From Acanthacorydalis orientalis (Eukaryota > Arthropoda > Insecta > Megaloptera > Corydalidae), in the NCBI GenBank assembly GCA_034766995.1, contig CM068322.1:18001745-18065744 (forward strand): a stretch of DNA of 64,000 bases, written 5' to 3'. A model generated the notes under the pieces. That model ran no database searches and was not told where the DNA came from. It saw only the letters and a list, made by a program, of their open reading frames with translations. Position numbers and translations under genes: made by a program. Positions 1 to 64,000 of this stretch are shown here, piece after piece. The number at the start of each line of letters is the position of its first letter. Position 1 is the first letter of the stretch.

Positions 1-51
1 ATATATATATATATATATATATACCTATCCTAATATAAATCTTTTTTATAG

Positions 52-451
52 ATTTTTATTTGGGTTCACATATAACTACGATTAATAAAAAACTTAATTA
101 TTTCGATTTTTATAAAAATTTCGTCTCAAAAAATGTGCCAGTGCTAATAAAACACGGTATTGAAAACTGGCCGGCAGTTTCAAAATGGAATGCAAATTAT
201 TTTAAGTATGCAACAACATTTATTAAAAGGAACCAAAAAATAAAATTATGTTATTTTAGAGAAAAAATCGGGGCCAAAAAAATAACTGTCTCTATAACAC
301 CTAATGGCTATGCAGATGGAATAGCTTTAAATAATGCTGATAATAGGGATTACTTTGTTATGCCTGAAGAACGCGATATGACAATGTTGGAATTTTTACA
401 CCAAATTGAGTCACCTAAGTATTGAAAATAATTAAAATACACACATACATA

Positions 452-512
<61 letters not shown>

Positions 513-1573
513 TATAAATGATCACCACTAAATAATTTTGGAATTGTATGCTGATCACAATTGTTTGTAGAATATATTTTTGATAATTTCATTATTGGAA
601 TTTTTTCATTGATATTTGTATATTTTTAAAACACTAAAAAACATAAAAGTACACTTATTAATCTTAAAATAAAAATAAATTGATGTATATACCACCAAAC
701 TTTTATTTACTTTTCTGGGTTATTCATAGATAATCTATTAACACATTTTCTAGAGAAAATGAAATTTGTTATATACAAAAACAAAATTCAAACCTAACTG
801 AAGAATTTCCAGAATTGATTAAGGATGTAGAAGTAGATGTTGAATGGGCAAGTAAAGCATTTCAAAAACAGCCTGATGCTGTTAATTTTTGGATGGGTGA
901 TAAAAGGGCTACTACTAGTAGTGAGTATGTATTTATAAAAATTAATGAGTAACATTAGGGTAATTTTTTTTGATTTGAAAACATATTTTGTGATAATATT
1001 CAATTTTGAAACAAAGATTGGATTCACAATGTGTTTTAATTGAAATTGATTTGACATAACAGTATTTTTTATACACTAATTTTGTTGTATCAAACATTCA
1101 TTTTACATACACATTTTTTTTTAGTGCATAAAGATCCATATGAAAATATTTATTGTGTTATTGATGGTTATAAAGAATTCACATTAATACCACCATCTGA
1201 TTTACCTCATATTCCTTACAAAATGTATCCAGTTGGAATTTATAAACAAAATATAAATTCAAAATTTGAAATTATTCCCATGTTTGAAGATGAAGTAGAA
1301 CATTCAATAAAGAGAAAAAAAATGTTACCTTGGATAGCAATTGATCCTCTTAAACCAGACTTCAATAGATATCCTAATTTTCAAAATGCAAATATATATA
1401 AGGTCTTGGTAAATAAAGGTGATTGCTTATATTTACCCAGTTTATGGTTTCATCATGTGTCGCAAAGCCATGCTTGTATTGCTGTAAATTATTGGTATGA
1501 CATGGAATTTGATATAAAATATTGTTATTATAAATGTTTAGAAAATATTTGTAAATATGATAACAGTAATTAA
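52..1573 (+). CDS. JMJD7: JMJD7, JmjC-domain lysyl hydroxylase (5' end outside window)
   Basis: Four exons are read: 52-205, 260-418, 754-920 and 1125-1573 (TAA). All junctions are GT-AG and the phases join cleanly. JMJD7 is a 2-oxoglutarate/Fe(II) JmjC oxygenase that (3S)-hydroxylates a lysine in the DRG1/DRG2 translation-factor GTPases and is also reported to have protease activity; that is family knowledge. Visible are the YADG region, the QKQNSNL block, NFWMGD, then the HKD iron-binding motif (His 1127-1129, Asp 1133-1135). The distal iron-ligand histidine falls in LWFHHV (one of the two His at 1451-1456), followed by the family-typical [16 protein letters not shown]. Iron ligands appear intact. 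About 309 residues are visible; by comparison with human JMJD7 about 30 N-terminal residues lie off the left edge. The 206-259 intron is 54 nt with no stop, so an unspliced reading adds 18 residues absent from the family. It converges with TM9SF4. Confidence 0.93.
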
Positions 1574-2928: not shown

Positions 2929-3365
2929 TTAATCGATTTTGACTGCACTGTAGATTTTTCGAATGAATGAATATGCTGCAAAGAAACCAATAGTGCCTGT
3001 TAACAACCAAAATGTTAAAACCATTAATCCTGTATACGACAAATAAAGTAATGTTGGAATGAATTCTGATATTTCCAGTTTTGTCACGAAATAAAATATT
3101 GAATAAGCAAAAACATATACAGCAGAACCTCCTGATACAATGAAACTTCTCCACCACCAGTGGTAATCCTACAAATACAGAACAAAATTATAATTTTTAC
3201 TAAATTTATGTAAGCAATAAATTAAAACTATGTAACTAGTGAAAAGTTTTACATATTGAATAAATATGTTTCCAAGAAAATAAATTACATAACTTATATA
3301 TTCAATTCTGATTACATATAAATACACATATTCATGAATACATGATATATGTATTTTATGTTACA

Positions 3366-3406
<41 letters not shown>

Positions 3407-5515
3407 AGGTAGATAAAGAATAAATTTGTATATACCTCTCCACACAGTTGAAAATAGACCATAACAATTGATATTTGTGAGCATGAAATAACCAATATAC
3501 AAAATACAAGAAATAAGAATCCAAATAAGTAGTAAAATTGATTTTCCCATATGGCAGTAAATATGAAAAATAATTCGATAAACACAGCACCAAATGGTAA
3601 AATTCCTGCCATTAACGTACTACAACAAAATATATTGAATTAGAAAAAAAATATCTTATTATAATTATAATTCTTACCATAGCATAGGATTCATATACCA
3701 TAACTGATCGGGTACTTGACGAGGTATTTGATTTGTTCTTACTGGATGTTGGTACGGTTGTTTTCGATATCCAAAATAATAGCCTAAATATACTAATGGC
3801 AAAGATATTCCAAACCATAGTAATAGCAATGCCATCATGGTTGAAAAAGGTACAGCTCCACTTGAATCTTTTCCCCAAATAAAAAAGTTTAAAAAGAAAC
3901 AAGTACCAAACACAATAGCTGGATACAATGTAGCAGTCAAAAAAGCAGCTCGTTTCCACTGTCTGCCTTTCATTGTTTTATAAAGTCGAGCAGAGAAATA
4001 TCCAGCAATAAGACCCATAAATACATAAAGAAATATAGCTGCTGTCATTAATGCACCACGAGAAGCAGGAGACAGCATACCCAACATGGCAAAAACTGAA
4101 AAATACATTGACTCATTTATCAGAAAATATAAAAAGATAAAGCAATATTTTTTTTAAAAAAACAACTAACAAAAAAAACTTTCTTACATATAGTAATTAA
4201 TGCCATGAAGAAAATTTGAATTCCGCTTCCAATCACTGATGCAAACAATCTAGAATGTTTAGGAGGCCGAAATACATCACCATGCACTAATTTCCAACCT
4301 GTTTCTTCTATAGCTTCATCGAATCCTTCATCAGCATTGTAACGTGCTATATCTCGACGTAACGTTCGAACCATAATCATGGTCAGTATACCTGATCCAA
4401 TTCAGAGATCAATTAAATTTTCAAATAGCAAAATACAATAATCTTGAGTATATAAATTTTCGTACCGGATAAGAAAAAGACGACTACTAAAGAATTCACA
4501 ATTGAAAACCAATGTATCTGAACATCGTTCATTCCAAGATAAATATCCCACCGAGAAGCCCAACTTACATCCGACACTTCCCATTTAACAGAATATGTAA
4601 AAAATAAAGTTGTACTTGCTTGACCGTCTACTAATTGTGGTTTTACATTATCGGGAAAACTACAGGTATCACCGTTATTAAATTTAATGTCTGAACGACT
4701 TACAGATTGAGCTTCGACTTCAAAACCGACTACACGATATGCATCTCTGAAAATATATTCAACTTACAAACGTATATAATTTTTTCTCGAGTTATACTTA
4801 CGGTGTATGCGAATGATAAAATAACTTAATATTTAAATGATTGTTGATGTAATCCTTGTTTCCCATAGTGTATCCTAAAGGATACCCATGTTCAACTTGA
4901 ACTTCTTGATTTTCAGGATTTATAAACTTTGTTGCTGCTGGTAAATTATCAACGAGCCTATAATAATAATCGCTCATATCAACATAAAAATTAATAATTT
5001 TATTCATAGATTTCCTTACAAATGAACAAAATATGCATATCGTATTCGCTCGATAACTTTCTGTGAAGTTTCAGAATTCCAATTCATAGGATCGTTAGGT
5101 GAATGACATAATAATTTGCATTCAATATTTTCGGCCATTCTTACTTCATACGGTGTGTTAACTATCCGATCACCTCTTAAAACTTCTCCTAAATTTTCAG
5201 ATTTATAAATAAAAGTCCCATTTTTTGGTACACAAAAAGGTAACGAATAATATTCATAAGGTAATTGGGTGTGAACACTGGTCATTTTAACAGCTTTTAC
5301 ATCAATTCTTTGGCCTTTCTTAAATTCAACAGGTGCAACCCCAGGTACATAAAACTGAACCGATAAGTCAATAGTGAATGCTACTATAAGTAGCAAAATT
5401 CTATATATCTGTAAATAAAAAAAATATTTGTTAGGTTAATGCTGTGTATACTTTGATTAGCATATACGCTAAAGGATAAAATAATTGTAATACTCCATCC
5501 ACTTACCCAAAACAT
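2929..5515 (-). CDS. TM9SF4: Transmembrane 9 superfamily member 4 (TM9SF4), complete
   Basis: Eight coding exons on the minus strand: 5515-5507, 5408-5020, 4957-4802, 4746-4466, 4391-4188, 4095-3678, 3619-3436 and 3168-2929. They sum to 1881 nt, 626 residues plus stop, close to human TM9SF4 (642). TM9SF4 is a nine-pass Golgi/endosome membrane protein; the family is tied to membrane-protein sorting, phagocytosis and cell adhesion. Seen here are a signal peptide ([14 protein letters not shown]...), the luminal domain with [19 protein letters not shown] and [15 protein letters not shown], the VHGDVFRPP block, then the hydrophobic C-terminal half with [25 protein letters not shown] and [11 protein letters not shown]. 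The last residues, VKID, match the KxD Golgi-retention signal of the family. The first coding exon is only three codons. The start is supported by the signal peptide it gives. All exon phases agree and no lesion is seen. Confidence 0.95.
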
Positions 5516-9945: not shown

Positions 9946-11092
9946 TTTGACTATTTTCTACAATTTTAAAATGTAAATTTATACATTGTGTTAATTAAAT
10001 TATTAACACAAATATATTATATTCTGTAGTCAATAACTATCGTTTTGCAACAAAATATACACGTTTCTACAATACCTCTTTTTTAAAAAGTTGTCAAAAT
10101 TGATGGCTATACAGAATATATTTAATTTGAATGTATATAAGTTAGTTTAAATATAAAATTATATAAAATAAACTATTTTAACATAAATAAAAGACTGCCT
10201 TATATTTTATGTTATATAAGGAATGTGACTGCATCCTGGAAAATATTTTAAATATTCTTTTAATTAATTTATCTTACCATATATTCTATATAACAATAAG
10301 TAAATATGTTGTAGATATAAAATAAGATTGAATGTAATCGAACATTAAAATAATTAAAGTAATTATTTCTTTATTGTTAAATAGATATTCTTTCGCTTAC
10401 TAGTGATTTTATTCTATTTAATTTATTCATCATTTTATTTAATTATCATTATTGTTCAATAACAAGTTAGGAAAGCAGTTACACTTTTGCTTAAATATAA
10501 TTAACACTTAATTGTATTATCATTATTATAAAATGTAGTTTCATAGAATTAATAATTAATACTAGTATTAATAATTTTGTTTCTCGAGAGAAATGAATAT
10601 ATGTATATATATATATATATATATAAACGAAAAAAATACTTCAAATAGTCACTAAAAAATTAAAGTTTACATCATGACTGAAATAAAATATAGTTTGTTT
10701 TATTTGTCGTTCAAGGACGAATTTGTCAAGTTGTTAAAACAAATTGTTTATATTAAAAATATATAAACCTGTACAATTCATATAAAAACTGTTTTTTTTT
10801 TCTGTACAAAGTCTTCGAATTCATTTGTACTGCCTTCATTATGAGCGGCTACACTAACTCAGTATTTATAGAATCGATACCAAAATGATATTCCAATTTT
10901 ACACTAGTTAAATTAATTAATATTCGTAAGGAACACTCTTTCAATTTATTTTGAAAATATTAATTTCTACCATTAAGCAATTCAACGATCTTTTATTGTA
11001 GAGACTATTAGTTCAGTTACTAAATTAATTTTATTGCTTGTAATAAAAAATCAATGTTTTTAGTGCAAAGCTAATACACGATATATGTATAT

Positions 11093-11394: not shown

Positions 11395-15604
<4,210 letters not shown>

Positions 15605-40723: not shown

Positions 40724-41212
40724 TTTTAATTGACGATGATGTAAATTTAGCTTCATGCCAATTAAGTGAGAGCCATTTTTGGACAACTAACAAGAATCTG
40801 AAATGTATTTTTAGTTTTATTTTGCAGTGAGAATTTTTTTCCCTAAATTAAGTAACTGCAGTGGTATTAAATACGTGTACATAAATAACTCTTATTTACT
40901 GTGAATGGCTGGTGTACGTAAATGACCAACATTGGCGCATTGTAATTCCGCATCGCATTAATTTTAACATTTCTGACGACATGCTTGTTGATGAAACGAG
41001 TAGAAAATTTATAATTAATAACTGGATCAGGCATTTTAATTATTTTTTTCGCAACGGCGACCGATTGATGATATACACGGATCAATCGTATCAAGTGCAA
41101 TAATATTTTGCCGATGTCGTTCGACAACGTAATCATGTTACGTTACAAAAAATATATGACGTTCGAGTGGACGGCTTCTGTGTAAGTCGATGTAGTTGTA
41201 CATACAGGACTG

Positions 41213-41270
41213 CACCTGCGGTTTTTTCAAATACAGGAGTGGGTATAAATATGTGTTCAGTTCAGGTCTT
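41213..41270 (+). promoter_or_regulatory. Candidate pri-mir-1 core promoter (E-box, TATA)
   Basis: CACCTG, an E-box of the Snail/E-protein type, is at 41213-41218. GGGTATAAATA, with TATAAAT at 41244-41250, follows 26 bp later, and TCAGT initiator-like words at about 41257-41266 come next. The transcript would then enter the GC-rich stretch and the mir-1 hairpin starts about 1.0 kb downstream on the same strand. TATA words are common in AT-rich DNA, but this one sits in an unusually GC-rich context, which makes it stand out. Start-site data would be needed to confirm. Confidence 0.4.
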
Positions 41271-42000
41271 TGCTCGTTTGTAAACATCGGATAGAGCAAA
41301 GGTTCAAACACATTTGATATTGGGACGCAGAGTCTTGCAACGAAGCAGTTGTGTCAAGATCAAGGAGAGGGGACGGGGACGGAACGTCCGTACAAGAACG
41401 GGCATCGCGGCGGCTATAATTACCCGAGCGGCGGGCTGCCATCGTCGCGTGGGGCACGTGCCAAGGAAGGATGACGCGTGGTACACGGACGATGGGATAC
41501 AGCGATCGAACGGGTGAGGGGAACAGATCATAGAGTTGCTTTCGCTGCTGCGGCGTCGACGTCTCATATGCCGCAGCGGATGTATTTCGGGAAAAGACAA
41601 ATTTGGGTAGAAGAGGGGTAGTAACGTTTACGTTTGAGACTAGGTAAGCTTATACTATTCTTCGATGGCGATTCATGAGCCAATCGGATTCAACGGAGCC
41701 ATTTTTAGAATTAAGCTGCGGCCGCTTTTACGTCTACGGATGCTGGTACTGCGTGGAGGGTCGTCGACAATCGTCGTTCTGCCCTGGAGGTGGTCGCGGA
41801 GGACAAGATGCAAGCCGCCTGGATGTATGTGTGCATTCGCGATCTGGCACTATCAAGATGAAGATGTACTCCAAGTGCTTGAGAATCTTATAGGATCTTA
41901 TAACTCGTATAGGGAACTGCCGAGGGAGCAACTGCATAGTCTTCTATTAAACTAGATTCGATAGATTTGATCATCGTTTTCAAGTTATCGCAATGGAATA
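41271..42000 (+). other. GC/CpG-rich stretch 5' of mir-1, possible pri-miRNA exon
   Basis: This is the most GC-rich part of the window, for example GAGAGGGGACGGGGACGG near 41366 and TCGCGGCGGC near 41405, with CACGTG at 41455-41460. A donor-like TAG|GTAAGC at 41641-41649 could end a first exon. Overlapping frames of 96 residues (41665-41955) and 72 residues (41675-41893) on the plus strand have no domain I recognise and overlap each other and minus-strand frames, so coding is doubtful. It is best read as promoter-proximal or 5' exon sequence of the mir-1 primary transcript. Confidence 0.35.
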
Positions 42001-42273
42001 AGAAACGATAATGTGACCTGATTTATTAGTGTTCTTTTTGTGATTAAAATCGCTACAACACGAGTGAGTGCTTTTTAGATGTACTTTGAGAATTCTCTCG
42101 GAGTGATTTTTTGCGTAAATGATAATTACGCTTTTCAATTATTAATTATTACGAAGTTTAATTTAATTTATGAATAATATGTGTCAAATAATTTAGTGAT
42201 ATCTTTTTAGATTGTTATCATTGTTTTTAAAATTAATCAGTGAAGAGAATATACATCGAAACGATAAAGAAAA

Positions 42274-42356
42274 GCCTTTTGTAAGTTCCGTGCTTCCTTA
42301 CTTCCCATAGTGATTTGAACATATGGAATGTAAAGAAGTATGGAGCGATCATAGGC
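42274..42356 (+). ncRNA. mir-1: mir-1 microRNA precursor
   Basis: The 3p arm at 42324-42345 reads TGGAATGTAAAGAAGTATGG followed by AG, identical to the bilaterian muscle microRNA miR-1-3p (seed GGAAUGU). The 5p arm at 42288-42310 starts CCGTGCTTCCTTACTTCCC and pairs with it. The loop is TGATTTGAACATA. The stem continues outward as GCCT (42274-42277) against AGGC (42353-42356). miR-1 represses many targets in muscle differentiation and is driven in flies by Twist, Mef2 and SRF; that is prior knowledge. It is antisense to mib1 and lies about 26.7 kb upstream of the first visible mib1 exon. No miR-133 sequence was found in the window. Confidence 0.98.
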
Positions 42357-45911: not shown

Positions 45912-46578
45912 GAGGGTCGTTTGATAAGTTTGGTAAAAAAGAAATGTTAAATATCGCTTTTTGGAAAAAAAATCAATTTTATTTCTCAACATACTCTCCA
46001 TTGATGGCTATACACTTGGTCCAGAGAGTCTGCAAAACACGTATTAACGGCGGCGATGACATCTCCATTCGAGGATAATTTCTTTCCATCGAGCTAAATT
46101 TTCAAGTTTGGGAAGAAGCACGGCGCCAAGGCCGGAGAATAGGGTTGATGAGGAATCAATTCAAAGCCTAATTCGTGCAATTTTGCCATTGTGACGTTTG
46201 ATTTGTGGGACGATGCGTTGTCTTGGTGTAAGAGCACTTTTTTGTGAGACAATCTTGGCCGTTTTTGTTTCAGCTCTTCTTTCAAACGGTTCAATAATGT
46301 TGTATAATAGACTCCTGTTATTATTTTCCCATTCGTTAAGTAGTCGATTAAGATGATTCCTTGAAAATCCGAAAAAAACAGTGGTCATCACCTTCCAGCT
46401 GACAAAACGGTATTTGCCTTTTTCGGGGCACTTTCACCAGTCGTTGTTCACTGTTTTGACTGGTACTTCCACTCAGATGTGTAGTGGTGGATCCATGTTT
46501 CATCCACGGTGATGGATCGAAGTAAAAAAGCTTACTCGTTTTTTTGACAACTGCTACCAAACTTATTAAACAACCCAC

Positions 46579-50811: not shown

Positions 50812-51379
50812 CGTCGGTAGAAAAATAATTGCGGTTTATGACCTTCAAATTAATATACATTTTTCTCTTCTTTGATTTTCATAACTGTTTTAAGTGATTC
50901 AGAACAGTTGGTTGACTAACGCCTAACTTTTGTGAAACCTCTAGAATTGTTGTGCGTGGTTCTGATTCAACTAACGCTTTCAATTGGTTGTTATGAACTG
51001 AAGAAGGATGCCCGTGCCCTTCATTTTCAAAGCTCTCGTCTCCAGTATAAAATTTTTTGGAAACACCATTGCACCGTACGTTCCTTGACAGTACCCAAAC
51101 CAAAAGAATCGTTTAGTTTACGAGCACTTTCTGCTGCTTTAGCACCCGTTTTGAACTCAAACAAAAAAATTTATCTTATTTGCTTCTTTTCCATTTTTAA
51201 TTCAATAACCCAATTAGAAGTAAAATTAATAATAAAACCAAAGCCGATGTTACCAAAATACTGACCGAAAAATGCACTTTAAAATGATATTAGCATGAAT
51301 ACGATGAAATGACACTTTTATTAAAAAAAATAAGATTAGAATTCAGAAAACAAAAACCGCAATTATTTTTTTATCAACC
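50812..51379 (-). mobile_element. Internally deleted mariner, second family
   Basis: The ends share AAAAATAATTGCGGTTT within inverted repeats of about 25 bp (left 50812-50840, right 51351-51379). A TA flanks each end (50810-50811 and 51380-51381). The minus strand from an ATG near 51195 retains only the N-terminal part of a mariner transposase: FEFKTGAKAAESARKLND, ERTVQWCFQKI, then after a frameshift DESFENEGHGHPSSVHNNQL and the helix-turn-helix LGVSQPTVLNHLKQL. The catalytic domain is deleted. It is the complement, in parts kept, of the 45.9 kb relic. Confidence 0.87.
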
Positions 51380-53469: not shown

Positions 53470-54412
53470 ACAAACTTTAAATGTCTGCTGGAAAGCAGCT
53501 TGGCCTAGATTTATTGCAAATAGTGTAACCATTCAAACATCGACATTAACAAATAAGATCATTATTTTGGTACATTAAATTGGAGGAGAAGGTTTTGGTA
53601 CCCTTAGACAAAATGATGACGAATTGCTTGTGGATAATGCCTTAAGTGACGATGATATTATTAGTATAACTTTAGATATCGTCGAAGATCCAGAAAACGA
53701 TAGTGAAGCGTAAGGAAAACCTAACCCCCTCACTGCAGATATAATTCGAGAAGATCTTCAACTTTGCAATAAATTGGAAAATCATTTTCTTGTTCATGAC
53801 ACAAATTTTGAACGAGCCTACAAATTTCAACGTGAACTAAATAAATGTATGTCTGGATGTCGTGAACTGCAGGCAAAATTAGTAAAATCATCATCCCAAA
53901 GTTTAATCACTGATTACATTGCCAGGGGAAAAATCAACACAGAACGAGAGTGAAGTTGACGTTAATTCGGTTTGTGAAGAACCATTGTCTTTACCATGCA
54001 GATCTGACTGACTATCTCTTCTAGTGATGAAAGTGATTTCACAAATGTTCGCATATAGTGCCGAACATTGTCAGATAGTGACGATAATTCTGATGAAAAA
54101 ATGTAAAAAGAATTGTTACTTTTCAATAAAATTAAATGAATAAAGTTTTAAAATAAATTTATTTTAGGCTTTATATCAATTCCTTTCAGAAGGAATCCAA
54201 AGAATTTTTTAGACATTCTCCTTTTCCTGAATTTTCATAAACATTTTTAAGCGATTTTGGGTGTATTTTAACTCATTGCTTTGGTTTTATGCGATTTTAG
54301 AAAATTAAAGAAACGTATCCTTAATTTTTCAACGTAAGTTATGTCTTTTTTGAGTGATTTTTTATGCGGTTTTCTATGGTACGTATCTACCGCATGAAAA
54401 GAGACTTGACTG
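53470..54412 (+). mobile_element. 3' relic of a Tigger/pogo-type transposon
   Basis: The plus strand preserves the C-terminal end of a pogo/Tigger DDE transposase: LNVCWKAAWPRFIANSVTIQ at about 53477-53536, then an acidic tail (DDELLVDNALSDDDIISITL and NKLENHFLVHDTNFERAYKF) broken by several stops. The right terminus is ACCGCATGAAAAGAGACTTG followed by ACTG at 54389-54412 and then TA. Its reverse complement, CAGTCAAGTCTC..., is the Tigger-like end type. No matching left terminus was found within the preceding kilobase, so the element is 5'-truncated. Confidence 0.72.
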
Positions 54413-63430: not shown

Positions 63431-64000
63431 AAGTAAATGGAAGTATAATTTCATTCAAATAAAATTGGAAATTATCGTTATTAGGTTGTAATAAAGAATT
63501 ATAAAGCAGTAAATATAAAAAATTCGTATTCTTTTAGTTTTGAATTTAATATTTGTGTTCTTGTCAATATAAAATTTCATTGGAAATGAATACACGACTT
63601 GAATTAAAAAAAATATAAAACAACAAACATTTTAATATAACTTTAGTCTTTTAGTTCTTTACTTTTTGTAGCAATTGAACGTGTATGTACACCAATTCAT
63701 TTAAGTATGTGAACTTAGCCACGGAATAAAACAGCACTAAAAAGAATCTCTGCTTCATATTTCAGAAAAATACTATTGTGTACATTTAAAAAAATCAAAT
63801 TCAGAGATTTAAAAAAATTAAAAAAATACAATAGGCAATTAAAATTAATAATAATATTTAATCAAAAATACACTTTCTTGGGTAATTTTACTTGTATTAC
63901 ATTTACTTTGGAAAAGGAGTTAATCTGAGAAAATGATAGTTTTCTAAGACGTAATTATACTAAAAAAATTATTAAAAATTTGAATTTTTTTATTAATTAT

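Follow-up and report, generated by a model that had tools for sequence, protein, structure and literature searches.

The 64,000-nucleotide stretch of DNA analyzed here (the window) contains on its plus strand a genuine mir-1 gene and, on its minus strand, the C-terminal coding exons of mind bomb 1 (mib1) (Table 1). Regarding the microRNA, an Rfam search of the window scored the plus-strand hairpin at 64.9 bits against family RF00103, above the curated cut-off of 45.6 bits (E 2.1e-11). The hairpin has a predicted folding energy of -35.1 kcal/mol (z -6.0), a value equaled by none of 200 shuffles, and it carries the conserved miR-1-3p with its seed GGAAUGU, this 22-mer being the sole match in the window when up to 3 mismatches are allowed (0.00 expected). 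The initial annotation had placed an exact miR-1-3p hairpin on the plus strand, with which both the family score and the unique 22-mer agree. The minus strand was considered as the mir-1 strand and set aside: its match reaches 51.2 bits with a poorer fold (-25.8 versus -35.1 kcal/mol on the plus strand) and arises because the hairpin is a near-palindrome, which the match simply mirrors. At a loose Rfam threshold, 136 matches were obtained, among which only the two mir-1 rows reached the curated cut-off. The remaining ones, mostly to repeat-like microRNA families (mir-297, mir-1277, mir-3149 and similar), were dismissed as chance; many of them sit in TA/TG repeat stretches, judging by the open frames.

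Table 1. Features of the mir-1/mib1 locus (positions in the window).
Feature	Position	Strand	Evidence
Final mib1 coding exon, with the third RING and the stop	11395-11535	-	tblastn, Pfam, splice sites, frame
mib1 exon, second RING	13857-14192	-	tblastn, Pfam, splice sites, frame
mib1 exon with a phase-2 start, matching mammalian residues 610-862 (final ankyrin repeats, first RING)	14881-15604	-	tblastn, splice sites, frame, Pfam
Putative mib1 intron around mir-1, 48.4 kb or longer, its upstream exon not in the window	15605-64000	-	acceptor; residues 1-609 not found
GC/CpG-rich stretch, candidate promoter or first exon of an antisense pri-mir-1	41001-42000		GC ranks, CpG o/e
mir-1 precursor hairpin	42279-42352	+	Rfam RF00103 64.9 bits, fold z -6.0
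Mature miR-1-3p	42324-42345	+	exact, unique 22-mer

The mib1 gene was recognized with a human MIB1 query, which gave three minus-strand stretches in tblastn, the one at 14881-15604 being 72% identical (E 8e-113). The three exons have AG/GT splice signals, the last one holds the stop codon, and jointly they encode 399 residues that align to mammalian residues 611 to 1006. Pfam identified ankyrin repeats and RING fingers in them (zf-C3HC4_3 in 14881-15604), and the C-terminal ankyrin repeats followed by three RING fingers are those of mind bomb 1. The closest proteins are P0136 (83% identity in the tree tool) and a weevil protein (82% in blastp). A tree built from the Mib1 C-terminus with 35 rows groups the window with eight of them, including five beetles, at a support of 83/78 that lies below the tool's mark, and places it outside a 17-row group containing the tree's 15 Hymenoptera; seven of the 41 rows chosen, including all three hemipterans, had been dropped for want of an anchor motif, and the sampling comprised no moth, fly or lacewing. 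The sequence thus probably belongs to a holometabolous insect close to the beetles, and perhaps to a relative of the lacewings. The encoded protein (15250-15262, minus strand) is devoid of the mammalian 11-residue segment VDAAWEPSKNT, and a gap at this site is common among 177 Mib1 proteins (102 counts at residue 726).

The position of the microRNA with respect to mib1 hinges on the exon starting at 15604. Its first base is the third base of a Ser codon corresponding to mammalian Ser610 (phase 2), and it is preceded by the acceptor TTTATTCTTTCAG, a pyrimidine-rich stretch followed by AG. As this exon opens within a codon and follows such an acceptor, an upstream exon must exist. The hairpin begins 26,674 bp from this exon start and lies on the strand opposite to mib1, i.e., antisense to it; both the minus-strand location of mib1 and the distance of 26.7 kb to its first visible exon had been given correctly in the initial annotation. 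Of the intron interrupting the Ser610 codon, the window contains the 3' end, in phase 2, but not the 5' end.

We searched the whole window for Mib1 residues 1-609 with 177 Mib1 proteins, none of which matched beyond the mib1 exon region at an E-value of 1e-3, and neither the N-terminal MIB/HERC2 and ZZ domains nor the early ankyrin domains were found in the window. The sensitivity of the search was controlled by cutting a weevil Mib1 (P0128) into tiles: 37 of the 38 C-terminal tiles of 25 residues had their best match in the mib1 exons, and 35 of the 38 outscored the best N-terminal tile. Unmasked N-terminal tiles peaked on the ankyrin repeats of the known mib1 exon. Once the exons were masked, the minus strand to the right of 15.7 kb gave N-terminal tiles (60 of 25 residues and 59 of 35) a score of 18.5 bits at most, where the noise level given by C-terminal tiles was 20.0 bits; such tiling could overlook an exon that is very short or poorly conserved, as the three weakest C-terminal tiles illustrate. 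Since no residues from 1-609 were recovered in the window, an intact mib1 would have mir-1 in one of its introns, in antisense. The natural reading is hence that mir-1 lies antisense within mib1, in an intron that spans 48.4 kb or more and whose upstream exon would be located right of position 64,000. In the initial annotation, mib1 5' exons between 15.6 and 42 kb were named as one finding that would place mir-1 outside of the gene; the search recovered none in this interval, with the same reservation for a very short exon.

The first alternative is that mir-1 adjoins mib1 without being inside it, the gene being broken or its 5' exons moved, so that the microRNA would stand between mib1 and another gene. 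Such a state has been reported for the silkworm, in which miR-1 and miR-133 are located between MIB1 and CG30492 and not in an intron (PMC2500172), and the 48.4 kb to the right of the exon indeed yielded no exon for residues 1-609. However, a good acceptor precedes the exon at 15604, which opens partway through a codon and so requires an upstream exon, and very long introns are known at this place, the flanking exons being ~142 kb apart in the sea urchin (PMC11076791). Moreover, only two of the 14 long open frames tested right of 15.7 kb gave a Pfam match, both of them transposon-like. We thus regard a broken gene as rather unlikely and retain the intronic location.

The initial annotation had further proposed that the antisense placement of mir-1 mirrors the one within a MIB1 intron of vertebrates. 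The position of the vertebrate intron was deduced from faulty vertebrate Mib1 protein models, used as exon rulers. The motif ALRGNP followed by at least 14 further residues occurs in 165 of the 177 Mib1 proteins (the motif being absent from 12), and it continues with SAM in 157, with SAV in one, with GAM in one (a priapulid), with SAG in one (P0048) and with R in five, namely P0040 and P0046 (one fish), P0041, P0051 and P0060, representing four species. The five with R and P0048 are models that break off behind the motif, while two other models, P0026 and P0033, resume at Ser610. An exon ending in AG that is misjoined can yield only R or S at this position, and the vertebrate intron is therefore most likely also in phase 2 in the Ser610 codon. 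Regarding its rank, a survey of 73 models, mostly vertebrate, in which breaks common to at least two genera within one residue were considered and lone breaks elsewhere left uncounted, places boundaries before residue 609 near 76, 133, 177, 212, 302, 334, 364, 412, 457, 493 and 559. Ser610 is accordingly the twelfth boundary, or the thirteenth if a break at 236/237 is included, which two fish show (P0043, around a stretch of 8 residues, and P0001, as an insert). Several breaks do not fit this scheme: those at 378 and 588 come from a single species each, that at 603 from a single genus, and those at 611 and 642 from a single model each. With a count of 12 or 13, the Ser610 boundary is consistent with the intron 12 given in PMC2500172, an agreement that falls short of proof. 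The proposal is thus supported, and the shared position narrowed to the codon and, by deduction, to the phase, while the upstream exon was not found in the window. Other routes to the intron position were less informative: a literature search for variants of human MIB1 affecting the splice site at Ser610 returned nothing useful, the sea urchin primers said in PMC11076791 to flank the miR-1 intron matched, once translated, at most four of six residues in the five Mib1 proteins tried, and in the passages of PMC3777988 and PMC4240597 no primers were found for the exons on either side of the microRNA in mouse Mib1.

Since the mature sequence is on the strand antisense to mib1, miR-1 is not cut from the mib1 pre-mRNA and a separate antisense primary transcript is needed. 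When 255 windows of 500 bases are ordered by GC content, ranks 1, 2 and 4 go to those that begin at 41251, 41501 and 41001, and the interval 41251-42000 has a GC fraction of 0.496 and a CpG o/e of 1.34, versus a mean of 1.13. A promoter of mir-1's own, or the first exon of its primary transcript, may lie in this GC-rich sequence immediately upstream of the hairpin. Muscle-factor motifs near the hairpin are not clearly above chance: on both strands of 41000-42278, there are 16 E-boxes for 7.9 expected (as many in 13 of 200 block shuffles), four MEF2 motifs for 1.4 expected (33 of 200) and two CATATG for 0.6 expected (54 of 200), and no CArG motif was found there. An open frame at 41644-41955 (plus strand) was considered as a peptide encoded by the primary transcript and rejected, having no Pfam match and, for its inner part 41668-41952, no homologue (no candidate in the search had three words in common); the overlapping frame 41648-41893 also gave no Pfam match.

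The usual partner of mir-1, mir-133, was not found in the window, neither at the curated Rfam threshold or a loosened one (E up to 5) nor in a scan for its 22-mer that tolerated as many as 3 mismatches, which covers 21.6 kb to the right and 42 kb to the left of mir-1. No mir-133 in the same orientation thus stands nearby in the window, and it could sit beyond position 64,000. Its absence from the window bears on the mir-1/mir-133 pair and not on mir-1 itself. In animals the two microRNAs are described as clustered, with a linkage at >10 kb in the fly (PMC3763532), and the mir-1 cluster has been termed ancient (PMC1388199).

The arrangement in itself is already known. Indeed, a 2008 report places the miR-1/miR-133 pair of honey bee, flour beetle and vertebrates in intron 12 of MIB1, in antisense (PMC2500172), and the cluster has been placed in Mib1 in fish, with intron 11 given for spotted gar, elephant shark and horse (PMC4177693). 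The locus described here resembles the vertebrate miR-1-2/miR-133a-1 system (PMC2500172, PMC4177693, PMC3777988) by its microRNA family, its antisense orientation and, most likely, a mib1 intron at the same codon, with the phase deduced as above, and differs from it in that mir-133 was not found in the window and by a putative intron of at least 48.4 kb. Compared with honey bee and flour beetle, it would be the same arrangement in another insect, again with no mir-133 found in the window and with a mib1 that falls in the tree outside the bees and the sampled beetles, among which there is no flour beetle. In the sea urchin, a PCR product from cDNA spans the exons ~142 kb apart, so that miR-1 likely lies in a very long Mib1 intron (PMC11076791), as would be the case here; this animal is however an echinoderm, and miR-1 is treated as possibly co-transcribed with Mib1, the strand not being given in the passages available from this source. 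The silkworm pair is likewise linked to mib1 on the opposite strand, but is reported outside of the gene (PMC2500172). What is added here is the match of the intron at the level of the codon (Ser610), a phase obtained by inference, and one more insect lineage.

Taken together, the locus is very probably a genuine mir-1 gene with its own promoter, located antisense in the mib1 intron by which the Ser610 codon is interrupted, in an ancestral arrangement kept by control elements. According to this explanation, mir-1 would be transcribed from the strand opposite to mib1 within this intron (intron 12 of vertebrates in the literature), and its primary transcript would probably start at about 41.0-42.0 kb, where the sequence is GC-rich. 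In the mouse, a separate antisense transcript has been described that begins close to miR-1-2 (PMC3777988). The arrangement would have been inherited from the bilaterian ancestor, and its persistence would most likely be due to mir-1 control elements lying among the mib1 exons and hard to move, and not to mutual regulation of the products.

This last point departs from the initial annotation, which had suggested a shared or interlocked regulation. Under that alternative, mib1 and mir-1 would control each other, by antisense transcription or through miR-1 acting on the mib1 mRNA, and stay together for this reason; a functional link via Notch has been proposed (PMC2500172). A single 7-base miR-1 seed match is present at 10220-10226 (minus strand), 1,168 nt past the mib1 stop codon, where simple shuffles predict 0.08 per 3 kb, and it may belong to the 3' UTR; however, AATAAA signals precede it, at 65, 359, 397 and 444 nt. 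Furthermore, Mib1 level and splicing are reported as normal in mouse embryos lacking both miR-1/133a clusters (PMC3777988) and as unchanged in mice lacking the miR-1-2/133a-1 cluster alone (PMC4240597). Interlocked regulation thus finds little support, and we consider it improbable. As for a hairpin that would be a chance or decayed mir-1 copy instead of a working gene, this can hardly be the case, the match being full-length with both arms, an exact mature sequence and a strong fold, at the location expected from other animals.

Returning to an ancestral mir-1 kept in place by its control elements, we tentatively propose a more specific form of this explanation, which in our view falls slightly short of an even chance. 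The intron splitting the Ser610 codon would be a bilaterian regulatory block, in which muscle enhancers and the mir-1 promoter (here at 41.0-42.0 kb) have kept mir-1 antisense, at the same codon and in the same phase, since the ancestor of insects and vertebrates, mib1 being a bystander host. A microRNA and its host intron kept together from insects to vertebrates would illustrate how control elements can freeze gene order, in this instance for over half a billion years, and the window pins this position, in one further insect lineage, to a single codon with a deduced phase.

The mean CpG o/e of the window, 1.13 (255 windows), indicates no CpG loss of the kind left by DNA methylation, and many long TA repeats are present. 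Mariner-like pieces lie at 46094-46433 and 50879-51112 (both minus strand), with a Pfam Transposase_1 match in 46094-46384 and a helix-turn-helix at 50879-51112. Another mariner-like piece, within 12200-13220 (minus strand), sits in a mib1 intron; the segment 12216-12467, to which Pfam gave no match, is presumably mariner-like. A 79-residue open frame at 53714-53953 (plus strand) has no Pfam match, and we take it to resemble part of a pogo/Tigger-type transposon. Finally, an endomembrane protein 70/TM9SF gene is represented by frames at 2929-5435 (minus strand; Pfam EMP70 in 3674-4153, the single frame tested, the rest recognized by eye), and a cupin_8/JmjC-type protein, presumably JMJD7-like, by frames at 39-1573 (plus strand), past the mib1 3' end, with a Pfam Cupin_8 match in 1055-1573.
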